Shown: piece by piece, positions 431 through 32,135 of the stretch
Position numbering within the stretch: the first letter of the stretch is position 1
Layout of the letters: each line of letters begins with the position of its first letter
Assembly (NCBI GenBank): GCA_013360465.1
Contig: JABWBO010000056.1
Span: 1-51,423, forward strand
Length of the DNA stretch: 51,423 bases
Direction: 5' to 3'
Source of the DNA: Anaerolineae bacterium
GTDB lineage: Bacteria > Chloroflexota > Anaerolineae > Aggregatilineales > Phototrophicaceae
Translations under genes and position numbers: made by a program
The notes under the pieces: generated by a model
Told to the model about the DNA's origin: nothing
The model's database searches: none
What the model saw: the letters and a program-made list of their open reading frames with translations, nothing else

Positions 431-982
431 ATGATCGCGAGACTCTTCGAGGGAGAACGGATCAGGCTGACCGCGCTCCGGGCAGACGATGCACAGACCT
501 TCGCGGGGTGGTATCAGGACGGCGAATTTGCCCGTCTGTTTGACGCCGGACCCGCCGTGCCCAAGTCTGAGCGCGACACCGAGAGATACATGGATGAGGC
601 GGCGCGCGACCGGGGGCGCTATGCCTTCGCCATCCGCCAGCACTACAGCGACGAGATGATCGGCATCCTGGAGATCGACAGCCTGCAATGGACGCACGGC
701 ACGGCGTGGCTGGCGATAGGCATTGGCGATCCATCGCACCGGGGCAAGGGCTTCGCCACCGAGGCGATGAAGCTGGCGCTCCGCTTTGCCTTTCACGAGC
801 TGAATTTGCACCGGCTTCAGCTCACGGTGTTCGGCTACAACGAGGCGGCGATCCGGTTGTACGAAAACCTTGGCTTCCAGCGCGAAGGAGTCTTCCGCGA
901 GGCGCTGCACCGCGACGGACAGCGTTACGACATGATCCTCTACGGCCTGCTCAAAACCGAATGGCAGGCGGCGAACGAGTGA
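431..982 (+). CDS. GNAT-family N-acetyltransferase (RimJ/RimL type)
   Basis: A 183-residue cytoplasmic acetyltransferase expected to move an acetyl group from acetyl-CoA to an amine on a protein N-terminus or small molecule. The family signature is the acetyl-CoA pyrophosphate-binding loop, here RGKGFA at residues 104-109. It is followed by the typical helix (TEAMKLALRFAF) and by the late motif NEAAIRLYENLGFQREG seen in RimJ/RimL-like proteins. Length is normal for Acetyltransf_3 members. The start is one base after the upstream stop, consistent with translational coupling. Substrate cannot be told from sequence; it could equally modify an antibiotic, a polyamine or a ribosomal protein. Confidence 0.85.
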   Translation: MIARLFEGERIRLTALRADDAQTFAGWYQDGEFARLFDAGPAVPKSERDTERYMDEAARDRGRYAFAIRQHYSDEMIGILEIDSLQWTHGTAWLAIGIGDPSHRGKGFATEAMKLALRFAFHELNLHRLQLTVFGYNEAAIRLYENLGFQREGVFREALHRDGQRYDMILYGLLKTEWQAANE

Positions 983-1022
983 GCGCAGCGCAGCTGCTCT
1001 GTCCCTCCGAACTGCGAACTGC

Positions 1023-1139
1023 GGGGTGCATTTCAATATTTTGGGTACTTCAACGGACGATGCAGGCATCGTCCGTACATTTTGTAGCGACAACGCCCGC
1101 GTTGTCCGCCCGTATCCCCAATAATCTGAAATGCACCCC
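1023..1139. repeat. Small inverted-repeat element with 7-bp flanking duplication
   Basis: The ends are inverted copies of GGGGTGCATTTCA (1023-1035 and 1127-1139), with weaker pairing further in. The 7-mer GAACTGC lies immediately outside each end (1016-1022 and 1140-1146), as expected for a target-site duplication. A further tandem GAACTGC lies at 1009-1015. Inside are two perfect small hairpins: GGACGATGC/GCATCGTCC near 1055-1074 and GACAACGC/GCGTTGTC near 1089-1106. There is no coding capacity. It fills most of the gap between the acetyltransferase and the DUF4388 gene. A miniature transposable element is the simplest reading. No second copy was seen in this window. Confidence 0.65.
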
Positions 1140-1257
1140 GAACTGCGCGCTCAATTGTGTTGAACGGTGAGTCGTATTACAATTCTTGGCAGTATATGAC
1201 GGTCTGCCCGTCGATTCTTCGTCTTTTTTTCTGTCTGGTCGAGTACAGGGGGCTTCA

Positions 1258-2121
1258 ATGCCGCTGCAAGGCAATCTGCGTGATTTCTCGACAACGCAGC
1301 TCCTCAATTTGATCAATCTGGCGGGCAAGACCGGCACGCTGATCATGTATGAAGGCGTCCGCACAGGTGAAAAAGACGCGGTCGGCGGAGATCGGATGTC
1401 GGCGGGTAAGGAACGCGCCCGCGTGGCGTTCAAGGTCGGCAAGCTGATTTCGGCGGTACTCAACGGGCAGAGCGGCGATCTGGTCTCCGTACTCAACAAA
1501 GCGGGCAGGCTGACCAACGACCAGGCGCGGATCATCCGCGAACGCGCCAAGAACACCAGCGACAAAGCGCTGGCGCTGCTGCTGATCAACGCCAATTACG
1601 TGACGCAGAAGGATGTCGTGCGCAGCATCCAGCAGAACACGCTGGATGTCGTGTACAACCTGCTGACCTGGAGCGAAGGACCCTTCCGCTTCGAGGACAA
1701 CGTCCTGCCCGGCAATGACCGCATCCTGGTCCCCATTGACCTGGAGAACGTCATCATCGAAGGCGCGCGGCAGATCAAAGAGATCGAACAGCTCACCTCG
1801 CACATTCCGAATCTCGATATGGCGCTGCGCTTCCCCGATAACCCGCGCGAGAAATTCAAAGGGGTGCATCTCAGCGTCGAAGAATGGCGGGTGGTCTCGT
1901 TCGTCAATCCCAGGAACACCATCCGGCAGATCGCCAAAGCCAACAACATGACCGAAAACGAGATCCGCCGCATTGTCTTTGGTCTGGAACAGGCGGGGTT
2001 GGTCGAAGTCATCAAGCCGCAGACGGCGGAGGGCGCTGCCCGCAGTCAGACGCAGACACGCGCGCCGGCTGTGCAAAAGACCGTCGTCACCCGATTAATC
2101 GATCGTATCCGCCAGATTTGA
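1258..2121 (+). CDS. DUF4388 (PatA N-terminal-like) domain protein
   Basis: A 287-residue cytoplasmic protein. The start MPLQGNLRDFSTTQLLNLI is the typical beginning of DUF4388 domains, which occur in gliding, pilus and polarity regulators and in PatA-like response regulators. The ATG at 1258 follows a GGGGG-rich ribosome site at 1247-1252; an upstream in-frame start at 1186 would add 24 untypical residues. The domain covers about residues 1-170. The C-terminal part (about 205-260, NTIRQIAKANNMTENEIRRIVFGLEQ) looks like a winged helix. The next gene, a Ras-like GTPase, starts 51 bp downstream. In Chloroflexota and related phyla DUF4388 proteins recur next to such GTPases, so this is probably the partner or effector of that GTPase. 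Confidence 0.8.
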   Translation: MPLQGNLRDFSTTQLLNLINLAGKTGTLIMYEGVRTGEKDAVGGDRMSAGKERARVAFKVGKLISAVLNGQSGDLVSVLNKAGRLTNDQARIIRERAKNTSDKALALLLINANYVTQKDVVRSIQQNTLDVVYNLLTWSEGPFRFEDNVLPGNDRILVPIDLENVIIEGARQIKEIEQLTSHIPNLDMALRFPDNPREKFKGVHLSVEEWRVVSFVNPRNTIRQIAKANNMTENEIRRIVFGLEQAGLVEVIKPQTAEGAARSQTQTRAPAVQKTVVTRLIDRIRQI

Positions 2122-2172
2122 CCGCACCCTTCGCGCTGAAAGCAGAATTCGAGAAGAGCGAGCAACAAGCCC

Positions 2173-2715
2173 ATGCAAACGCAAACCGTCAAAATGGTCG
2201 TCACCGGACCTTTCAGCTCTGGGAAAACCGAGTTCATCCGCGCTATCAGCGAGATCGATGTCGTGACCACCGAGAAGGATATCAGCTCGGAGGCGGAACG
2301 ACAGGTCAAGAGCTATACGACGGTGGCGATGGACTTCGGGCGCATCACCGTCGATGACGACCTGGTACTCTATCTGTTCGGGACGCCCGGTCAGCGCCGG
2401 TTCGATTTCATGTGGGAAATCCTTGCCGAAGGCATGCTCGGTTTCGTCGTCATGGTCGACAGCACCAAGCCAGAGACCTTCCGCGAGGCGAAGAGCATCC
2501 TGGAAACCTTCAAAGCTTACGCGCCCACGCCCTACGTCGTCGCCGCCAATAAGCAGGACCTTGGCGAGGCGTGGAATATCGATGATCTGCGCATCGCCCT
2601 GCGCATCGAAGAAGGCGTCAAGCTGCTGCCCTGCATCGCCAGCAGCAAGGACAGCGTGAAGGAAGTCCTGCTGGAACTGCTCTACTCCATCCTTGAGGAG
2701 ATGGAGCGCAGTTGA
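2173..2715 (+). CDS. Small Ras/MglA-like GTP-binding protein
   Basis: A 180-residue single-domain GTPase. The P-loop is GPFSSGKT (residues 12-19), the switch II region contains GTPGQ (70-74) and the guanine-specificity motif is NKQD (126-129). The classical DxxG is replaced by FGTPGQ, as in the bacterial MglA/Arf-like group (COG2229). Such proteins act as molecular switches for cell polarity, gliding and surface machinery. A Roadblock/LC7 partner would normally act as activating protein, but none is adjacent here; the DUF4388 protein upstream is the likely partner. A hydrolase starts 31 bp downstream. Family call is firm; the process it controls is unknown. Confidence 0.88.
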   Translation: MQTQTVKMVVTGPFSSGKTEFIRAISEIDVVTTEKDISSEAERQVKSYTTVAMDFGRITVDDDLVLYLFGTPGQRRFDFMWEILAEGMLGFVVMVDSTKPETFREAKSILETFKAYAPTPYVVAANKQDLGEAWNIDDLRIALRIEEGVKLLPCIASSKDSVKEVLLELLYSILEEMERS

Positions 2716-2746
2716 TCTTGTCCCCTCACAAAGCACTGTAGGGATC

Positions 2747-3556
2747 ATGGCGACGCTGACGACCGAGCAGGGAATCGTCCATTACGAAGCCTACGGACGT
2801 GGACGACCGGTGCTGCTGCTGCACGGTTGGCTGAATTCCTGGGCGCTTTGGCGTAACTCCATCGAGCTGCTTGGTCGTAATTTCCGCACCTACGCCCTCG
2901 ACTTTTTCGGCTTTGGCGATTCCGACGCGCGCACTGAAGACTTCTCCGTCGCCAATTTCGGTTCGATGGTCAACCAGTTCATGGACCGCATGGGCATCGT
3001 TAAAGCACCGCTGATCGGGCATTCGATGGGCGGCACGGTGGCGCTCAGCGTCTCCATGCGCTACCCGGAAAAAGTCGTCAAGGTCGGCGTGGTCGGGTCG
3101 CCCATCCAGGGCAGCTCGCTGCGCCCCCTGCTGCGCGTCGCCGCCTATCGCGGTTGGGCGGAACTCGCCGAAGCTTCTCCCGTCCTCTACGATCTCTTCC
3201 AGAAAGGCTTCACCCCCTTTCTGCGCGGCTATTCGCATTTCCTGGCGCGCGATGGCAGGGCGCTGGGCGATATGCTCTCGGCAGATGCGGCAAAGCTGGC
3301 ATTTGGACCGTTCTGGGAAAGCATCAATACGCTGCGCAATACCGATCTCACCCCACATCTCAGCCAGGTCAACGTGCCGGTGCTGGCGGTCTATGGCAAG
3401 CGCGATAACATTGTCGATCCCAGGCAGCACAAAATCATCAAAACCCATATCCCGCACAGCCGCATCGCCTGGTTCGAAAACTCCGGTCACTTTCCCATGC
3501 TCGACGAACCGGAGCGTTTTCACAACACGCTGCTTGATTTCCTGCACAATGGCTGA
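2747..3556 (+). CDS. Alpha/beta-fold hydrolase
   Basis: A 269-residue soluble alpha/beta hydrolase. The start is ATG 2747, just after a GTAGGGA ribosome site. The N-terminal LLLHGW forms the oxyanion-hole region. The nucleophile elbow GHSMGG places Ser at 93. The acid is probably Asp220 (GKRDNIVD), and the C-terminal GHFPMLDEPE gives His248. A complete triad and normal length indicate an active esterase, lipase or lactonase-type enzyme with unknown substrate. It is third in a five-gene same-strand run with a GTPase and an acyl-ACP-reductase-like enzyme, so an acyl ester or thioester substrate is plausible but only inferred. Confidence 0.85.
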   Translation: MATLTTEQGIVHYEAYGRGRPVLLLHGWLNSWALWRNSIELLGRNFRTYALDFFGFGDSDARTEDFSVANFGSMVNQFMDRMGIVKAPLIGHSMGGTVALSVSMRYPEKVVKVGVVGSPIQGSSLRPLLRVAAYRGWAELAEASPVLYDLFQKGFTPFLRGYSHFLARDGRALGDMLSADAAKLAFGPFWESINTLRNTDLTPHLSQVNVPVLAVYGKRDNIVDPRQHKIIKTHIPHSRIAWFENSGHFPMLDEPERFHNTLLDFLHNG

Positions 3557-3630
3557 AGTTAACGGGGGGCGCGGTGCATCGCGCCCTTAGGCAACGATAC
3601 GAGATATTCAAGTGCTGAGGTAGGGCGTTC

Positions 3631-4947
3631 ATGCAGCGATACATTATTGAAGACTCGCGTCACATCCCGCCGTTCAATGAACCTGCCAGCCTGCTCACCC
3701 TCGGCACGGAGCCGCTCAAGCTGCATCAGGAGAACGTCATCCTGAAGACGTTTCGGGGCGCGGTCCCGGTGGGCGCAACCTTCAGCGATGTCGAACAAAT
3801 CGAGGGCGTGCGCGGTCAGGCGCTCGTCTACCGCGACAACCTGTTCTTTGATGTCGAATTTCTGACCGCCTTCAGCGATGCGGCGCGCCGCGCAGGACGC
3901 GCCTGCCGGGCGGCGTTTTCGCCCGAAGACCCCGCCTTTCGCGCCTACACTCTACCGCTGTCGCGCGCCTTTCAGATGGGCATCGACCCCAGTACCGGCA
4001 AACAGGTCTGCCTCGCCGATCTGTGGTATTTCCCGGACGGCTTCTCGCCCGATGTCATCCCGATCGTCCTCTCCAGCGACTCGCAGCAGATGGGTTTCTA
4101 CAACGTCCCCGACTTCATGACGATGGAGCGCGATACCCTGACGCACTACGGCGTGGCGCGCGCGCTGATCGCCATCGAAAGCTGGGTTCACGTCTATTTT
4201 GCCTCGATCATCTACAGCCTGTTCGGGCGCGCCAGCCGGGTGGACCGGCGCGCCGCCCAGCACAACCTGTTCAGCCTCACGCTGCTGTGGAAAGCCATCC
4301 TGGAACAGCGCCAAATCCTCAGCACTTCGGCGGTGGTCGAAGTCGGCAAAAACACCACCATTCACCCCACCGCCGTGATCACCGGTCCGGCGAAGATCGG
4401 CGATAACTGCGCCATCGGTCCTGGCGTGTTCATCGACAACTGCACCATCGGCGATAATGTCACCATCGACGATGGGTGCAGCCTGATGTTCAGCAGCGTC
4501 GGCGACGGCTGCTTCCTGCCCTTCCGCGCGGCGCTCTATCTGACCGCCGTCATGGAAAACACCATCATCGCCCAAAACACCTGCCTGCAAATGTGCGTCA
4601 TCGGGCGCAACAGCTTCGTCGGCGCGGGCAGCACCTTCACCGACTTCAACCTGGTCGAGCAGCGCCCGATTCGCGCCGCTAACCTGCATGGCGCGCTGGA
4701 AGAAGTCGGGCAGATCGTGCTGGGCAGCGCTGTCGGGCACAACTGCCGCCTGGGATCGGGCATGATCGTCTTTCCGGGACGCATGATTGAATCGGACGTG
4801 GTGCTGGTGGCGTCGCCGCAGCGCCGGGTCATCAGCCGCAATGTCAGCTTCGAGGAGAGCGATCACCACACCCTGAGCCAGCAGACGCGGCACGCCCGCC
4901 ACTATCCGCGCCGCGACGAAAAGCAGGAACAGGAAGAATCATGGTGA
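3631..4947 (+). CDS. Left-handed beta-helix (hexapeptide repeat) protein with unrecognised N-terminal domain
   Basis: A 438-residue protein. About residues 236-400 contain repeated hexapeptides (VVEVGKNTTIHPTAVI, AKIGDNCAIGPGVF, CTIGDNVTIDDGC), the [LIV]-G-x4 pattern of left-handed beta-helix acyl- and acetyltransferases and GlmU C-termini. The helix is interrupted by a loop (about 330-355) before a last set of strands. The first 230 residues are not a recognisable nucleotidyltransferase: no GlmU-like GxGTR motif is visible. They include a hydrophobic segment (ARALIAIESWVHVYFASIIYSLFG) that may be a membrane-associated helix. The C-tail is charged. It ends 9 bp before the acyl-ACP-reductase-like gene, so tight co-expression is likely. 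An acyltransferase role is inferred, not shown. Confidence 0.7.
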   Translation: MQRYIIEDSRHIPPFNEPASLLTLGTEPLKLHQENVILKTFRGAVPVGATFSDVEQIEGVRGQALVYRDNLFFDVEFLTAFSDAARRAGRACRAAFSPEDPAFRAYTLPLSRAFQMGIDPSTGKQVCLADLWYFPDGFSPDVIPIVLSSDSQQMGFYNVPDFMTMERDTLTHYGVARALIAIESWVHVYFASIIYSLFGRASRVDRRAAQHNLFSLTLLWKAILEQRQILSTSAVVEVGKNTTIHPTAVITGPAKIGDNCAIGPGVFIDNCTIGDNVTIDDGCSLMFSSVGDGCFLPFRAALYLTAVMENTIIAQNTCLQMCVIGRNSFVGAGSTFTDFNLVEQRPIRAANLHGALEEVGQIVLGSAVGHNCRLGSGMIVFPGRMIESDVVLVASPQRRVISRNVSFEESDHHTLSQQTRHARHYPRRDEKQEQEESW

Positions 4948-4956
4948 GGCGCGGGC

Positions 4957-6048
4957 ATGGATGACACCTTTGCCTTCATCATCCACCCCATCCAGATCAA
5001 GAAGGATGTGGCGCGCAAGTATCCGCTGCTCGGCAGGCTCCTGACCGAGCGGCAGATCAACTTCTTCTCGCGTTTCTTCCCGCCCGTCTACATCTCTGAA
5101 GTAAGCGGTGTGCGTTCACAGGCGACCGGGCGTGAACTGCGCGGTTGGCTGATCGCCTGTCCGTATACGCCGCCGACCATGATGTCGCTGCCCGTCGAGA
5201 CGGTCTACGACAAGATCGTCGCCTGCGGCAGGATGGCGGAACACTTGGGCGCGAAGATCCTCGGCTTAGGGGCGTTCACCTCGGTGGTCGGTGACGCCGG
5301 GGCGACTATCGCCCATCGGCTGGACATCCCGGTCACGACCGGCGACAGCTATACCGTCGTCATCGCTATCGACGCCATCCGTGAGGCGGCGCGGGCGATG
5401 CATATCCCGATGGCGGCGGCGACCGTCGCGGTGGTCGGCGCGACTGGCTCCATCGGGCGGACCTGCGCCGTGCTGCTGGCGGGGGGATGCCGCGAGATGA
5501 TCCTGATCGGGCGGCGCGAAGATGCCCTGGAAGCCGTGCGCGCGGAATGCCTGGAACGCGGGTCCGCCATCAGCGTCGCCACCGACGTTCATGCCATCTA
5601 CCGCGCCGACCTGATCCTGACGGTCACCAGCGCCATCCGCGCCGTCATCGAGCCGGAACACCTCAAGCCGGGGGCGGTGGTCTGCGATGTCGCTCGCCCG
5701 CGTGATGTCGCCCGCCGGGTGGCGGAGCGCCGCGCCGATGTGCTGGTGATCGACGGCGGCATGGTCGAAGTGCCAGGCAAACCCGATTTTCATTTCGATT
5801 TCGGCTTCCCGCCGGGCAAAGCCTACGCCTGCATGGCGGAGACGATGGCGCTGGCGCTGGAAGGGCGCTACGAGGATTACACCATCGGCAAAGAGATTCC
5901 GCCGGAAAAGGCGGAGGAGATCGGCGGGATTGCCGGGCGGCACGGCTTCCGCCTGAGCGGCTTCCGCAGCTTCGAGCAGCCGATCACCGAAGGGCAGATC
6001 GAAGAAGTGCGCCGCCACGCCGGTCAGGCGCAGTTCAGAGTCACGTGA
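4957..6048 (+). CDS. Acyl-ACP reductase (AAR)-like NAD(P)-dependent oxidoreductase
   Basis: A 363-residue protein that automatic annotation would probably call shikimate-dehydrogenase-like. From memory its layout follows cyanobacterial long-chain acyl-ACP reductase: an N-terminal region with ISEVSGV, then GLGAFTSV (103-110), TTGDSYT (127-133), a Rossmann loop GATGSIG (161-167), a second-half IDGG (265-268), and GKAYACMAETM with Cys292 where the AAR acyl-thioester cysteine lies in the ACFAES motif. The final IGGIAGRHGFRLSGF also matches the AAR end. AAR reduces fatty acyl-ACP to fatty aldehyde. No aldehyde-deformylating oxygenase is seen nearby. It is last in the 1258-6048 run. Aldehyde or alcohol lipid synthesis is the best guess; another acyl-thioester reduction is possible. 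Confidence 0.7.
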   Translation: MDDTFAFIIHPIQIKKDVARKYPLLGRLLTERQINFFSRFFPPVYISEVSGVRSQATGRELRGWLIACPYTPPTMMSLPVETVYDKIVACGRMAEHLGAKILGLGAFTSVVGDAGATIAHRLDIPVTTGDSYTVVIAIDAIREAARAMHIPMAAATVAVVGATGSIGRTCAVLLAGGCREMILIGRREDALEAVRAECLERGSAISVATDVHAIYRADLILTVTSAIRAVIEPEHLKPGAVVCDVARPRDVARRVAERRADVLVIDGGMVEVPGKPDFHFDFGFPPGKAYACMAETMALALEGRYEDYTIGKEIPPEKAEEIGGIAGRHGFRLSGFRSFEQPITEGQIEEVRRHAGQAQFRVT

Positions 6049-6103
6049 AGCACAGGCGGGAGACCCGCCGGCTCGCCCGCCGATGCAGCAGGCGCAAAAG
6101 AGG
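6049..6103. other. Short GC-rich inverted repeat between convergent genes
   Basis: The gap between the AAR-like gene and the convergent DtxR gene holds GGCGGG...CCCGCC around 6056-6082, with an internal GACCCGCCGGCTCG. This resembles the short palindromes at 23189-23250 and 50105-50157. There is no T-tract, so a classical terminator is not evident, but the structure could end transcription from both sides. Confidence 0.35.
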
Positions 6104-6799
6104 TTAATCCAGGGGGAAGGCTTCCGGCGCGCAGACGCGCAGCACGCCCGCCAGCTCGTGACCGAGCAGCACGGTCTCGCCATCCAGGTCGAGCTGAAGC
6201 GGACCATTGAAGGGGGCGCGCGCTACCAGACTGAAGGTCCTGCCGGGGCGCAGTCCCAGCTCGCCGAGATATTTGAGTTTGTCGATGTCGTGCGTGTTCA
6301 CCCGGCTGATGGCGAGGGTTTGCCCAGGCTCCCGCTCGTTGAGGGGGAAATCGCGCACGTGCGGCATGACGCCGTCGGCGCTGGGAATCGGCTCGCCGTG
6401 CGGGCAGCGGCGCGGCGCACGGGTCATCTGGCTCATCTTGTCGACGATCAGCTCGCTGACCACCTCGCCCAGCGAATCGGCGTCGTCATGCACCTCATGC
6501 CAGCCGAACTTCATCACATCGACCAGGAAGACTTCGACCAGACGATGGCGGCGGATGTTGGTCAGGGCTTCGCGTTCGCCGGCGGAAGTCAGGGTGATGC
6601 CGCGATACGGTTCATGTTCGATGTAGCCCGCTTCCTTGAGGCGCTGCATCATACGGGTGACGGCAGGCGCAGAGACGCCGAGCGCCTCCGCCAGCGCTGA
6701 GGTAGAGATGAACGGGCTGTCGTCCTGATAATAGGCGATCCGGTACGCCTCAGCCAGATAGCTTTGTGGGGAATGCCGGTGAACTGCCGTCTCACCCAT
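6104..6799 (-). CDS. DtxR/MntR-family metal-dependent transcriptional repressor
   Basis: A 231-residue regulator. An N-terminal winged helix (about 10-75; LAEALGVSAPAVTRMMQRL is the recognition helix region) is followed by the dimerisation and metal-binding domain with HRLVE (85-89), HEVHDDAD (101-108) and CPHGEPIPS (132-140). A C-terminal FeoA/SH3-like domain follows (about 155-228). This three-domain build matches DtxR/IdeR and long MntR proteins, which bind Fe(II) or Mn(II) and repress metal uptake genes. The position of Cys in DtxR's site is not obviously Cys here, so metal choice cannot be decided. No metal transporter is adjacent. A weak inverted repeat upstream (6852-6880) may be its own operator. 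Confidence 0.88.
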   Translation of the reverse strand: MGETAVHRHSPQSYLAEAYRIAYYQDDSPFISTSALAEALGVSAPAVTRMMQRLKEAGYIEHEPYRGITLTSAGEREALTNIRRHRLVEVFLVDVMKFGWHEVHDDADSLGEVVSELIVDKMSQMTRAPRRCPHGEPIPSADGVMPHVRDFPLNEREPGQTLAISRVNTHDIDKLKYLGELGLRPGRTFSLVARAPFNGPLQLDLDGETVLLGHELAGVLRVCAPEAFPLD

Positions 6800-6851
6800 A
6801 CGTCATGCTTCTCACGCTTGCCGAATTTTGATTATACCGATCATCAATATA

Positions 6852-6880
6852 TCAACCTGAGATTATTTTATCAAGGTTAA
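6852..6880. promoter_or_regulatory. Candidate operator upstream of the DtxR-family gene
   Basis: An AT-rich stretch in an otherwise GC-rich region has imperfect symmetry, AACCT...AGGTT (6854-6878), about 55 bp upstream of the regulator start. DtxR-family operators are typically AT-rich palindromes with TTAGGTTA-type arms. The arm match is short, so this is only a suggestion of autoregulation. Confidence 0.3.
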
Positions 6881-7088
6881 ATGGAAAGTGCTGCTGTGGT
6901 TAAAGTGCGCTGTGCCGCGCCCGGAATTTCCCGACTTCCCTTGACGCCGTTCATAAGGCGCGCCTAACATTACCGGCGCTGAACTCCCTGGGCGATCAAA
7001 GACCCTGATCGCGGGTGTTCTCCACCGCCTTCCGCATTTCGTCCCTTGACCGAAGCCTGATGACCGGCAGCGCCGGACCATTCACCGA

Positions 7089-27243: not shown

Positions 27244-28434
27244 TTATGCCGTCAGGGGCGTCAGGTCGAGTTCCTCAACCGCCTGCTCGAAGGCGCTGAC
27301 TCCCAGGTTCAGCATCACGATCTCCGGGATCGGGAAGCCGTTGAACGCCGCCGCGTACTCGTTGGTGTACGCGCCGGTGTCATAGAACACCAGCCGGTCG
27401 CCGATGTGAATCTCCGGCAGTAGGATGTCGCGCGCCACGACATCACAGCTGTCGCACGAGGGACCCGCCAGCGTGTAGGTGCGCATCGGGCGTTCCAGCG
27501 TCTCGTCCGTCACCAGATCGACCACCGGGGGGAACCCTTCAAAGGTCTCCATCAGCCCGTTGAACACGCCGACATCCAGGTACAGCCAGGTCTGTTCGCC
27601 GCGCAGCGCCCGCCCCATGACCGTCGTCAGCAGGCGACCCGATTCGCCGACCAGCCCGCGCCCCGGTTCCAGCGCCAGCAGGAAATCGGGCGTGTGCGGG
27701 ATGTGTGTGGCGACAGCGTCCATGACTGCCTCGCCAATCGCCTCGATGGTCGGGATGGCGGCGTCATGGTAATGCCCGGCAGGGAAGCCCCCGCCGATGT
27801 CCAGAAAGTAGAGGTGATGTCCGCGCATGGCGGCAGCGCGCCACACTTCGCCGCAGGCTTTGATGGCGTTGACCCAGTTCTGCACGTTGAGGCACTGCGA
27901 TCCAACATGGAACGAGGTGCCGATCGGCTGCAAACCCAGGTCGCGCGCCCGGTCCAACAGGCTCAGCGCGGTGGCGACATCGACGCCGAACTTGCCCGCC
28001 AGCGGCAGAACGCTGCCGGTGTTGTCGACGGCGAGGCGGACGTAAACTCGCATTCCCGGCGCATAGCGCGCGACCTTCTCGACTTCCTCGATGGAGTCGA
28101 CGGTCACGGCATAGACGCCAACTTCGTGCATCCGGCGCAGAAAAGGCGGCTGCTTGATGGGGTGACTGCAAATGATTGCGTCGCCCGCCGCCCCTGCCGT
28201 CAGGGCGCGATTCAGCTCTGGCTCCGACGCGATCTCGATGCCGCCGCCCAACCCTACGACCGTTGAAAGGATGGTCGGGTTAGCGTTGGCTTTCATCGCG
28301 TAGTCGATGGCGGCGCCGGGGAATGCAGCCTGGAAACGGCGGAAGGTATCGCGGATGCCTGCGAAGTCGATGAACAAAGTGGGGGTCGTCGGAAACGAGT
28401 CTTTCACAACGGTGTCCAAACGGACTGTGTCCAA
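27244..28434 (-). CDS. Ornithine/lysine-type decarboxylase, PLP fold type III
   Basis: A 396-residue enzyme of the eukaryotic-type ODC family that decarboxylates ornithine (possibly lysine) to make putrescine or cadaverine, the first step of polyamine synthesis. The PLP lysine is in DYAMKANANP (about residue 48), followed by SFHVGSQC, EPGRGLVGESG and DTGAYTNEYAAAFNGF. GPSCDSCDVV (about 324-333) supplies the active-site cysteine across the dimer. LysA and ODC are relatives; the GPSCDSCD motif and short length favour ODC. There is no ATG: TTG 28434 follows AAGGAG at nine bases and is preferred; another TTG is at 28473. Polyamine genes speE and speH are not nearby. Confidence 0.85.
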   Translation of the reverse strand: MDTVRLDTVVKDSFPTTPTLFIDFAGIRDTFRRFQAAFPGAAIDYAMKANANPTILSTVVGLGGGIEIASEPELNRALTAGAAGDAIICSHPIKQPPFLRRMHEVGVYAVTVDSIEEVEKVARYAPGMRVYVRLAVDNTGSVLPLAGKFGVDVATALSLLDRARDLGLQPIGTSFHVGSQCLNVQNWVNAIKACGEVWRAAAMRGHHLYFLDIGGGFPAGHYHDAAIPTIEAIGEAVMDAVATHIPHTPDFLLALEPGRGLVGESGRLLTTVMGRALRGEQTWLYLDVGVFNGLMETFEGFPPVVDLVTDETLERPMRTYTLAGPSCDSCDVVARDILLPEIHIGDRLVFYDTGAYTNEYAAAFNGFPIPEIVMLNLGVSAFEQAVEELDLTPLTA

Positions 28435-28513
28435 CTGGACAAGCTCCTTCTGGCAGACTATGCCCTTTTTCAAGATCAGAACCCGCGCCGCCCGACCCCT
28501 TTACATGATCGAA

Positions 28514-28531
28514 GGCGGTCATTTGACCGCC
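28514..28531. promoter_or_regulatory. Hairpin in the leader of the ODC-like gene
   Basis: GGCGGTCA-TT-TGACCGCC is a perfect 8-bp stem about 80 bp upstream of the ODC-like start. It may be an operator or a leader hairpin; polyamine genes are often controlled after transcription. The rest of the gap to 28707 shows no gene. Confidence 0.35.
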
Positions 28532-28707
28532 CCCGAGGACCATGCGCCGGCTGCACGCGAGTTCTGAATTCCGTTCAGTGACGATCATTATAACGCGATT
28601 TGTCACGGAGGGACATTAGGAAATTGTGCGACTCTTCCGCGCCATCCAGTGTGCCAGTGAGACGTTCAAGCGCTGTCAGGCGCATCGAAGTCTACACGCG
28701 GAAATAC

Positions 28708-28835
28708 TAAGGCTGTTCCAGACAAAAGACGCGCCAGCGATTGCAGGGGCGAACCCACGTGTTCGCCCGTGAACGGCGGGCGGAGCTGTGTCTCCGCCCC
28801 TACAACTGCTCGATTATTTTCTTGGAACAGCCTAA
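28708..28835. repeat. Small inverted-repeat element, family R1, copy C (inverted)
   Basis: TAAGGCTGTTCCA at the left and TGGAACAGCCTAA at the right: a TAA direct repeat outside the GGCTGTTCCA inverted ends. On the minus strand the right end reads CTTAGGCTG, and its TAG (28832-28834) is the stop codon of the adjoining restriction-enzyme gene. The interior is the same as copy B with a few substitutions. Confidence 0.78.
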
Positions 28836-30154
28836 GTCGGATTCGAACGAGCCGCGGCAATCGCAGCTTGGAGGGTCTCGACCCAACGCTGGCAAGGCTC
28901 ATCTATCGGTGCAAAAAGGCGGCGCTTCTGTGCCAGTGACTCGCCATACGCCAGAAACCAACGTCTGGCTAGCGCTTCTGGACTTCCTACTCCCTCATCT
29001 CGAAGGCGAATAAATTGTTCTTGTACCCAATCAACGAACGGAAGAATACGAACAACAACGCCATACATCGCCTCAATGTCACCCATTCGAGACATAAGCT
29101 CAGATAAACGCTCGGGGGGATCGCTGGTTACAAATCCTACAAGCTCTACGTCAGGGTGCTTGGCTAGTTTATCAGTCAGTTCCTCAATCTCATCGCGCAG
29201 ATAGCCTTTGCCGTACTTTGCGTCCCACGCCTCTACAATCTGCCCATCACGCTTGATTTCCACGTCGCCGATATTTCCGTGCTTCTTGTTCGCCGATCTC
29301 ATCTGCGAAAGAGGCACTATTTCACCCCCTGCCAATGTGCCAAATTCCCAGACAGCTTGCAAGAGACTATGCATGGCAATTTCCATCAATCTCGCTGCAT
29401 AGTCTGATTGATGGATATGTTCAAGAATAACCCGAGTGATTGCAGGCACATCGCTATTGGCTGAAAAATCATCCAAATCCCTGAGCATACTCTCCGCCAG
29501 GACCCTGAACTGCTCGGCGCGATTTATGAGCTGCGACAGCAAGTAGCGGAGGGACACTTCAGGCGGCAGCGAACCATCTTCAATTCGCTCCACAACTTCT
29601 AGCCATTGGTGACGCCCGCCTCGCATCTGGGCTTTGTACATTCTGGAATAGGGATAGTTCTCTGCCAGACTTCGTGTCATGAATAGACCGTAGCTGTTCA
29701 ACAAAAGTAGATTGTGTGCGCGAAGCGCCGGGGTGACATAATGACTATCGAGCGTCCTCATGGAGATGCCCTCGGTCCATGAAAATCCGCTGCTGTTTCG
29801 TCCGCCCTTGTGCAACCGAATACTCTGAGTTGGCTCGATAGACTTTATGCAAAGCTGCATCACGGTTAAAGCAACAAGCGCGCGCCCAACCTCGCTCGTT
29901 ATTGTATCGACAAGATTGTCAAGCAAGGTCGCATCTTCATCGCTCAGTGAACTGAAACCGAGTCCAGAAGCCTCTTGGCTCTTACAGAGGTCTATTTGAT
30001 GGTTTAAGTATCCATTTGACAATGCGGTTTCAATTGCACGATATCGCTGTCGAGCCTCTGCGCAAGACGCACCTTCCAGGAAAACCTCTATTCGCCCATC
30101 AGAATGGACGAGTTCACTTTTGTCAATGTAAACGCGGAGATGCATCTCAGCCAT
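28832..30154 (-). CDS. Probable type II restriction endonuclease (PD-(D/E)XK)
   Basis: A 440-residue protein encoded directly behind, and overlapping by 8 bp, a C5-cytosine methyltransferase. GDVEIK (296-301) and VEAWDAKYG (307-315) have the spacing of a PD-(D/E)XK nuclease core: an acidic residue in the first strand, then D-A-K in the next. Downstream DEIEELTDKLAKHPDVELVGFVTS continues as the typical helix and strand. The N-terminal 280 residues are mostly helical and may bind DNA. Base composition is visibly AT-richer than flanking genes. The stop codon comes from the repeat element. I recognise no named enzyme, so the recognition site is unknown. The endonuclease call rests on the motif plus gene position. 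Confidence 0.72.
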   Translation of the reverse strand: MAEMHLRVYIDKSELVHSDGRIEVFLEGASCAEARQRYRAIETALSNGYLNHQIDLCKSQEASGLGFSSLSDEDATLLDNLVDTITSEVGRALVALTVMQLCIKSIEPTQSIRLHKGGRNSSGFSWTEGISMRTLDSHYVTPALRAHNLLLLNSYGLFMTRSLAENYPYSRMYKAQMRGGRHQWLEVVERIEDGSLPPEVSLRYLLSQLINRAEQFRVLAESMLRDLDDFSANSDVPAITRVILEHIHQSDYAARLMEIAMHSLLQAVWEFGTLAGGEIVPLSQMRSANKKHGNIGDVEIKRDGQIVEAWDAKYGKGYLRDEIEELTDKLAKHPDVELVGFVTSDPPERLSELMSRMGDIEAMYGVVVRILPFVDWVQEQFIRLRDEGVGSPEALARRWFLAYGESLAQKRRLFAPIDEPCQRWVETLQAAIAAARSNPT

Positions 30155-32135
30155 TGATGCTCCTCAGATTTTTTCGCAACTGGACACTGCGCGGTGTTAA
30201 TGTTGGAAACGCATATGGGATGAGGTAATCTCCGACATCAATTTGAGGATTGGTAACATTGTTTCTGACTTCATAGCCGATCGAACGCAGCCACTCACAA
30301 TACATTAGTACATTCCCGCTGTCTAAGCCCAGGAGCATCGCTAAATGTTCTTGCCGCATTCGTTTGGCGACACCCGTCCCATTCACAACCGACTGAAGCG
30401 CCTCCCATCGCCAATCCATACTTCCTCTTAGCGCCAGAGTCATCTGTGAACGAAAACGCGGCGCATATTGATAGTAACCGCACAACTGCACCAAATCGGC
30501 AACACTCGTTAGCTGGGCGTTTTTTTCCTCAAAAGCCTTCCATAAAGCAGTGAAGACTCGATCTTCCGTGCTGTAGGCGCGGAGGATCACTTTGGAGGTT
30601 GGCAAAACCCATCGATAGCCGGGGGTTGGAGCTGTTACGATTTCATAATGCCATTCTTCGCCGACTCTTGATTCAGTGTCGGCTGAAATTACCCACACAT
30701 CCTCACTCAATGAATAACTGAGCCTAATTTTCGCGCCATCTGCCGTTTTCTTGTGGTTCAGAGAAAAGTTTGATGTGATGTATCTGGTTTCTTCATGCGA
30801 AACGGCGCCGTTGAGTCGCGGTTTCTGCAATGTGCCATCGGTATTTAGCTTTGCTATTGCCTGCCTTGCTTTTTCGGCATATACCTGGGTCAAATCGCGC
30901 TTGCGCTGCCGAAAGCCAAGTCCCTCATTATGCTGAAGATAGCGCATCGGAAATGGCAGGCGCACGCCGAACAATTGGTCAAGAACTGCTAACGCCAGCA
31001 TCCTGGCGATCTGCGGTGGAACAGAGTTTCCGATCTGCTCGATGGCGGTCTGCCTATTGCCCACCACTTCAAAAGAGTCGGGGAATGTTTGCAGCCGCTT
31101 CAGTTCGGCAACCGTAAAAGCCCGGTTTTCCCAACTAAACGGACCTGTGTACTGCCCGCCTTGTGCCTTGATAGTTCTTACGGGCGCATCCGGGTCCGCT
31201 TTGTACAAGAAGTCAGAGAACTTCGATCTCCAGCCAAAAACTGGGGCGGGATGTCCCAGTTTTTCTGTGTAAAAGCTATAGTTTAGCCCCGGCGGGATAT
31301 CATTGAGCAAGTGACCATATTGCCCAGCCAAGCCGGTTCGAACCCCCGAGATATCTGCATCTTCTACGGCTTCTCGTGCAGTGTAGTAAGGCTGACTGCC
31401 GTCGGCATCCGGACCATGAGTTGGGCGCGGGAACATAAACGTACCGTCCTTCAACCCCACAATCAAAAGGCGCTCTCGATGCTGCGGAACGCCATAGTCG
31501 GCGGTGTCCAAAATGCGATAATACAGGGTGTACCCCGCTTCTCTAAAAGCGTCCTGAATCTCCTTCCAAGCGTTTCCCTGCTGCGCGCCAGTGATGCCAT
31601 AAACATTCTCAAAGAGAAATCCTCTAGGTTTCAGGGTTTTTAAGAGCCTGACGTATTCTTCGAACAACACCCCGCGGGCATCGGTCGTTCCTAAAACGCC
31701 GGCTGCCCGTCTGCCGGCGGCGGAGAAAGTTTGGCAGGGCGGTCCGCCTATGATGAAGTCTACTTCCAAGCTTGCCGATGGTTGGTAATCTCGTATGTCT
31801 CCGCAGTGAGGATGACTTCCATGAAAAAGGCGCCCCGGCTGTGAATTTGTTTCCAGCGTCTTAACATATTTGGCTTCAATTTCAATCATTTCGATGCTAT
31901 GGAAGCCGGCATCGTGAAATCCAATGTCAAGCCCACCGCCGCCAGAGAATAAACTCAGAGTCTTGATAGGCTTGACCCCGTGATCTCGCAGCCAGGTACG
32001 CAGCTTATCTCCGAACTCGTCAACCCAGTTAGCACCAGCACGAACCCCCAGCGCTTCGAGCATCTCTTTGTGCCATGAGCGCGTGTCATGTTCGTTCATT
32101 TGCGCGAGAAAACTCGGTAGGAGTTGTTGTTCCAT
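30147..32135 (-). CDS. DNA (cytosine-5)-methyltransferase with C-terminal extension
   Basis: A 662-residue Dcm-type enzyme that methylates C5 of cytosine in a specific sequence. Motif I is FSGGGGLDIG (63-72), motif IV GGPPCQTFS with catalytic Cys134, motif VI ENV (176-178), motif VIII QHRERL (218-223) and motif X GNSVPP (369-374). The target-recognition region is about 225-340. An extra C-terminal domain of about 260 residues (from about 400) lacks methyltransferase motifs and may help in sequence recognition. A further N-terminal lead of about 55 residues precedes motif I. One 60-base line in this gene (30241-30300) is 43% GC by hand count, against 78% for a line in der (33001-33060), which supports horizontal acquisition. 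It starts 23 bp after der. Confidence 0.93.
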   Translation of the reverse strand: MEQQLLPSFLAQMNEHDTRSWHKEMLEALGVRAGANWVDEFGDKLRTWLRDHGVKPIKTLSLFSGGGGLDIGFHDAGFHSIEMIEIEAKYVKTLETNSQPGRLFHGSHPHCGDIRDYQPSASLEVDFIIGGPPCQTFSAAGRRAAGVLGTTDARGVLFEEYVRLLKTLKPRGFLFENVYGITGAQQGNAWKEIQDAFREAGYTLYYRILDTADYGVPQHRERLLIVGLKDGTFMFPRPTHGPDADGSQPYYTAREAVEDADISGVRTGLAGQYGHLLNDIPPGLNYSFYTEKLGHPAPVFGWRSKFSDFLYKADPDAPVRTIKAQGGQYTGPFSWENRAFTVAELKRLQTFPDSFEVVGNRQTAIEQIGNSVPPQIARMLALAVLDQLFGVRLPFPMRYLQHNEGLGFRQRKRDLTQVYAEKARQAIAKLNTDGTLQKPRLNGAVSHEETRYITSNFSLNHKKTADGAKIRLSYSLSEDVWVISADTESRVGEEWHYEIVTAPTPGYRWVLPTSKVILRAYSTEDRVFTALWKAFEEKNAQLTSVADLVQLCGYYQYAPRFRSQMTLALRGSMDWRWEALQSVVNGTGVAKRMRQEHLAMLLGLDSGNVLMYCEWLRSIGYEVRNNVTNPQIDVGDYLIPYAFPTLTPRSVQLRKNLRSING

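Follow-up and report, generated by a model that had tools for sequence, protein, structure and literature searches.

What does an acyl-ACP reductase (AAR)-like protein do in a member of the Anaerolineae that has no aldehyde-deformylating oxygenase (ADO) to receive its product? The stretch of DNA analysed here (the window; 51,423 nucleotides) had been described, from its sequence alone, as encoding an AAR-like protein with the putative acyl-binding cysteine outside cyanobacteria, with no ADO gene next to it and with alcohol, wax or ether lipid as possible fates of the aldehyde. The open reading frame (ORF) is real, and all motifs named for it are present in the order claimed: GLGAFTSV (residues 103-110), TTGDSYT (127-133), GATGSIG (161-167), IDGG (265-268) and ACMAET (291-296), the last of which contains Cys292. 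The source genome (5.93 Mb, 97% complete) holds this reductase as its sole match at E 1e-5. ADO is indeed missing beside the reductase, and none was detected anywhere in the genome (E 1e-10). Promoter and terminator scans of positions 900-6900 gave nothing better than shuffled sequence. The relevant features are listed below, with conservation among the 43 related loci found in a genome scan.

1186..2121, + strand: DUF4388 protein of the conserved cluster (PF14332, E 3e-20; 19 of 43 loci)
2173..2715, + strand: small Ras/Arf-superfamily GTPase of the cluster (75-100% identical in 19 of 43 loci)
2747..3556, + strand: alpha/beta hydrolase of the cluster (PF00561, E 3.2e-30; ATG at 2747, longest frame from 2693; 19 of 43 loci)
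3631..4947, + strand: partner protein with a nucleotidyltransferase-like N-terminal domain and a left-handed beta-helix (LbH) domain (438 aa; Pfam and VIA)
4957..6048, + strand: stand-alone AAR/PigE-TR-type acyl-thioester reductase (ATG start, 363 aa; profiles, PDB matches and model)
5437..5457, + strand: GATGSIG dinucleotide-binding loop, residues 161-167 (aligned with 162-GATGDIG-168 of SeAAR)
5830..5832, + strand: Cys292 codon (corresponds to AAR Cys294 and to the cysteine conserved in PigE and TamH)

Family, fold and active site of the reductase

Among curated profiles, PigE (NF053554) ranked first (E 7.1e-63, 213 bits against a cut-off of 850, residues 5-358) and AcACP_reductase (TIGR04058) second (E 4.8e-33, 114.9 bits against a curated cut-off of 449.7). 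The protein therefore lies far under the cut-off for the cyanobacterial AAR equivalog, and it differs from the PigE equivalog both in score and in having no aminotransferase domain. Sequence matches in the PDB followed the same order for the single protein (4ppm, E 8.1e-37; 6jzq, E 1.5e-27) and for a 38-row profile (4ppm, which is PigE, E 3e-54; SeAAR, E 1.7e-44). The AlphaFold model of the reductase (pLDDT 90.9, pTM 0.90) had 6jzu as its top Foldseek match (TM 0.78/0.82), and in VIA-align 2 the solved AAR structures reached Z 36.5 (325 residues, 2.9 Å), followed by the carmabin TAD domain (Z 35.4 over 342 residues). Overlaid on the solved AAR, the entire model matches. With a whole-chain AAR fold in the predicted model, a C-terminal acyl-accepting cysteine and the GxxGxxG loop GATGSIG, the reductase is a member of the AAR/PigE-TR superfamily and not a cyanobacterial-type AAR. 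Profiles, PDB matches and fold bear out the AAR-like protein outside cyanobacteria of the preliminary description, with the correction that the reductase part of PigE scores higher than cyanobacterial AAR.

Two other Rossmann-containing families had to be weighed. The shikimate-dehydrogenase model PF01488 exceeds its own cut-off (41 bits), as it would for a shikimate/quinate dehydrogenase, and glutamyl-tRNA reductase (GluTR) profiles gave 26-29 bits. However, the PF01488 match is confined to the Rossmann part (residues 151-263), the shikimate N-terminal substrate domain had no match at E 0.01, and GluTR, the next fold after the AAR-type structures, reached only Z 15.2 over 138 residues. Both identities were rejected on fold and domain coverage, leaving them next to no probability, and the comparison of AAR and shikimate dehydrogenase profiles kept AAR.

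The active site agrees with the AAR assignment. Cys294 of SeAAR corresponds to Cys292, which is invariant in all 38 rows of the relatives' alignment and retained in 56 of 56 sequences of a mixed alignment (39 stand-alone, 12 fused-clade, three PigE-like and one TamH-like sequence, plus SeAAR). In the GATGSIG loop, G161 and G164 are invariant in the 38 rows and G167 is present in 90% or more. In the solved enzyme, the acyl carbon on Cys294 lies 3.14 Å from nicotinamide C4, according to the accessible text of PMC7089970. A position of Cys292 close to the nicotinamide, which the preliminary description had made a point of its proposal, is consistent with this alignment. The same source (Gao et al., PMC7089970; accessible text) has R189, R193 and R314 of SeAAR contacting the extra phosphate of NADPH. 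Here these positions are R186, A190 and K312, with Arg or Lys at two of three, which was counted in favour of the preferred reading; either NADH or NADPH could serve. The Ala190 substitution was counted against the preferred reading given below, as was Arg247 in place of SeAAR Y247, which is needed for acyl-CoA binding.

By homology, an acyl chain would move from acyl-ACP (or acyl-CoA) onto Cys292, and hydride from NAD(P)H at GATGSIG would then release a fatty aldehyde. From alignment and model, we infer with good confidence that the protein converts an acyl thioester to an aldehyde through Cys292; the carrier and chain length of its substrate are presumptive.

Relatives and pairing with the LbH gene

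Of the 43 related loci, 40 are 60-94% identical and nearly all of these are labelled Chloroflexota/Anaerolineae, with one labelled Bacteroidetes. The outlying relatives are from one Armatimonadetes genome (49%) and two actinobacterial MAGs (50%); the surroundings of the Armatimonadetes relative (L036) and of one actinobacterial relative (L038) gave no functional clue. Some Chloroflexota carry a second form, in which the AAR domain stands behind an N-terminal domain of ~300 aa that had no Pfam or NCBIfam match in L055, the one example searched. Carriers of this fused form are, as we take their names to be, Chloroflexus- and Herpetosiphon-like genomes, together with some Anaerolineae (loci L055, L056, L058, L060-L064, L093, L095 and L096); in L055 and L061 the fused gene shares 4 bases with an alpha/beta hydrolase gene. 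A quick tree placed the 12 fused-clade rows together (support 100), set apart from a clade of 36 of the 39 stand-alone rows (support 87), with L036-L038 outside. It flagged long branches for SeAAR and L057, so the placement of these two is unsure. L057 (8018-10567, genome G145) is a Chloroflexota gene in which a class III aminotransferase is fused ahead of the AAR domain, in the TamH order, and likely has a role in fatty-amine synthesis.

Mobile-element collections were also searched. Seven plasmid records matched, six of them annotated as class III aminotransferase and one unannotated. The only match in a phage collection, L100 (MT835709.1), is filed as an unverified human-faeces bacteriophage; judged by its ORFs, it looks like a bacterial contig of high G+C content that includes an AAR-like gene with a CFAET motif, and a phage origin was dismissed. 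No candidate from the viral_contigs scan proved to be a relative of the reductase.

The gene directly upstream is a regular companion of the reductase. Only 9 bases separate the LbH stop from the reductase start, and the partner shows hexapeptide/eIF2B-LbH Pfam matches in 28 of 28 relatives. Its model was of lower quality (mean pLDDT 68.1, best in residues 1-150), and Foldseek returned weak matches to nucleotidyltransferases (best E 5.5e-4). VIA-align 2 placed ST0452 first (Z 14.9, 7.0 Å rmsd), then GMPPA and eIF2B subunits. The partner thus has the two-domain layout of ST0452-type sugar-phosphate nucleotidyltransferase/LbH proteins, at 15% identity and that same high rmsd. A G-H-N motif at His370 is invariant in the relatives' alignment, and presumably recalls the catalytic histidine of LbH acyltransferases. 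PDB sequence alignment failed to place such a histidine in the partner, because the matches span mainly the first coils.

The LbH gene is present in 32 of the 43 reductase loci. In the other 11 it was not found in the retrieved stretch, and several of these stretches are short, but L010, L032, L037 and L038 span 8 kb on each side. We counted both genes across a class sample of 199 genomes, with reductases in an open frame of <480 aa scored as stand-alone (61 genomes) and those of at least 480 aa as long form (26 genomes, some inspected). Two low-scoring rows were set aside, taking the stand-alone set from 61 to 59: G193:C244, which is truncated by the contig end (G193 is counted in neither group), and G318:C24 (L091), which falls in the fused clade of the quick tree though it has no N-terminal domain. 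Both forms occurred together in six genomes before this step and in five after it. LbH was found in 58 of 59 genomes with a stand-alone reductase, compared with two of 21 carrying only the long form, and in 55 of 59 it precedes the reductase on the same strand, the two matches being 5-801 bp apart. The single genome with reductase and no LbH (G176) has its reductase where a contig of 6,908 bases ends. Fisher's test gave 4e-40 for reductase with LbH and 2e-17 for the long form with WS/DGAT, values that ignore shared ancestry and are not readable as probabilities. A hand count in a phylum sample of 151 genomes gave 29 with an AAR-type match and 29 with LbH, 27 being common to both.

Three pairs are non-adjacent: in G218 the site is close to where a contig of 4,725 bases ends, whereas in G199 and G286, both from the window's own family, the separations are real, with the two genes on different contigs and kilobases from the ends. 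These two genomes were counted against the preferred reading, as were eight genomes of the class sample with LbH and no stand-alone reductase, and G104 (L075), in which the whole cluster is present and AAR has no match. Among the genomes listed for the window's own family, six have both genes and two (G316 and G328) have neither.

Signalling neighbours and fate of the predicted aldehyde

The reductase and LbH genes belong to a larger conserved cluster, and the full set of DUF4388, GTPase, alpha/beta hydrolase, LbH and reductase occurs in 19 of 43 loci. Near the reductase in relatives, a cluster of REC-type proteins is found in 25 loci and very large GAF proteins in 17; their representatives in L028 are REC-GGDEF and multi-GAF proteins by Pfam. 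The closest counterpart of the L007 REC-GGDEF protein in the window's genome is 74% identical and is encoded on another contig (C37). A defence role gained no support, as none of the five cluster proteins had a PADLOC match at E 1e-5. In other Chloroflexota genomes (L070-L074, L077 and L078), LbH, REC-type and giant GAF-sensor genes stand in a row with no reductase adjoining, and several of these loci have V4R-like and UvrA-like genes ahead (Pfam, one example each). Elsewhere in the window, positions 28000-32000 have a G+C content of 0.51-0.55 compared with about 0.60-0.66 around them. It covers the gene for a C5 cytosine methylase and an ORF of 440 aa with no Pfam match, and is possibly an acquired modification system.

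These neighbours raise the idea that the protein is no longer a bulk producer and instead passes information on acyl-thioester or NAD(P)H status to the signalling genes linked with it, as its place in relatives among DUF4388, GTPase, response-regulator and multi-GAF genes might suggest. Conservation of the catalytic cysteine and the cofactor loop argues against this, and we regard it as highly improbable.

If an aldehyde is made, where does it go? Alkane synthesis was dropped, as ADO was not found in 151 Chloroflexota genomes, the window's own included (E 1e-10), in a search that detected the S. elongatus control. Another route would reduce the aldehyde to an alcohol for esterification by WS/DGAT, making the reductase the first step of wax-ester synthesis. 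In its favour, a single WS/DGAT is encoded in the window's genome, on a different contig from the reductase; it passes the TIGR02946 cut-off of 309.95 with 314.3 bits. In G094 (L063, 4368-7954), a fused AAR gene and a WS/DGAT gene share 4 bases, and in G193 (L090, 7150-11996) AAR (cut at the contig end), SDR, PlsC-like and WS/DGAT genes stand in a row; L063 and L090 are candidate wax-ester operons. However, among the 54 genomes that have the stand-alone form and no other, just three carry WS/DGAT, compared with 24 of 26 long-form genomes and 42 of 199 overall. Co-occurrence does not support wax for the stand-alone form, and such a fate is improbable. Of the fates proposed in the preliminary description, the one through wax is disfavoured here for the stand-alone form, although the window's genome is one of the three; its premise that no ADO gene lies next door holds.

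For the fused form the picture differs, and wax esters have been recorded for Chloroflexus and Roseiflexus, in the accessible text of PMC4400912, and a WS/DGAT-like protein for Roseiflexus castenholzii, in that of PMC4520822. In Chloroflexus-like bacteria, the fused AAR could supply the aldehyde or the alcohol for wax-ester synthesis. By hand count, the 14 long-form genomes of families f19 and f29 in the phylum sample gave a WS/DGAT match only in G094, which speaks against a simple rule linking long form and WS/DGAT. The WS/DGAT of the window's own genome (L085, 7988-10663) lies in one 891-aa frame with a terminal dUTPase domain, either an unusual fusion or an assembly effect.

An ether- or alkyl-type membrane lipid, made from the aldehyde or a derived alcohol via PlsC-like acyltransferases, is rather unlikely. 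It draws on G011 (L059), where cmk, two PlsC-like genes and a stand-alone AAR follow one another with gaps of 43, 14 and 10 bases. It is the position behind two PlsC-like genes that suggests a membrane lipid, and this arrangement was seen in one genome only.

Co-occurrence favours the LbH protein over wax and alkanes. We consider it probable, from sequence comparison, the model and the genomic pairing, that the protein is an NAD(P)H-dependent acyl-thioester reductase whose predicted aldehyde feeds into a pathway shared with the LbH protein, with signalling genes encoded alongside. The aldehyde may be used together with the nucleotidyltransferase-like/LbH protein encoded upstream, and this pathway may be connected with the GTPase and DUF4388 genes, as well as with the response-regulator and GAF-sensor genes seen in relatives; these last two steps are the weaker ones. 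Far more tentatively, reductase and LbH could form the core of an undescribed aldehyde pathway in Anaerolineae, switched by GTPase and response-regulator/GAF proteins and yielding a new acyl-derived product.

Comparison with described AAR-type systems

The closest named systems are the N-terminal thioester-reductase domain of PigE and the C-terminal one of TamH (prodigiosin and tambjamine, respectively), which provide the best curated profile and share the same cysteine. Identity to the window protein is 28-32% for the reductase part of three PigE-like proteins from plasmids. In contrast to PigE and TamH, which are fused to a class III aminotransferase, the window reductase stands alone, and a Pfam search of the examined cluster genes beside it found no aminotransferase. 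In the accessible text of PMC9594044, TamH reduces C12-ACP to the aldehyde in a coupled, NADH-dependent reaction, is NADH-specific and refuses acyl-CoA; in that of PMC8341465, thioester reduction by PigE is supported by cell extracts, whereas NAD(P)H stayed unchanged with the purified enzyme. Because of these two findings, on acyl-CoA and on purified PigE, activity of homologues is conditional.

SeAAR (6jzq/6jzu/6jzy) shares the fold, the Cys294/Cys292 equivalence and GATGxIG, with 31% identity over 310 aligned residues. It differs in the four basic ADO-docking residues (from the accessible text of PMC9743570 and PMC7089970), of which only K80 is retained here (K86), while R73, R79 and R118 are replaced by P79, D85 and A119; where the window protein has Asp in place of R79, 27 of 38 relatives have a basic residue. 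The carmabin-pathway TAD domain (9e4s/9e50/9e56) has the same fold but only 20% identity, and by its chain name and residue numbers (1927-2309) is a late domain of a large adenylation-domain protein.

Our search found no literature linking AAR to Anaerolineae or Chloroflexota, which is weak evidence as most subscription journals lay outside its scope, and no publication among the matches listed treats Chloroflexus and acyl-ACP reductase together. In the accessible literature, systems that use AAR-type reductases pass the aldehyde on either to an oxygenase, for alkanes, or to an aminotransferase, for amines. The reductase described here has a third type of protein as its regular companion, suggesting a different product. 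A stand-alone AAR that has an undescribed sugar-enzyme-like partner in place of an alkane-making one makes the fate of its predicted aldehyde testable.
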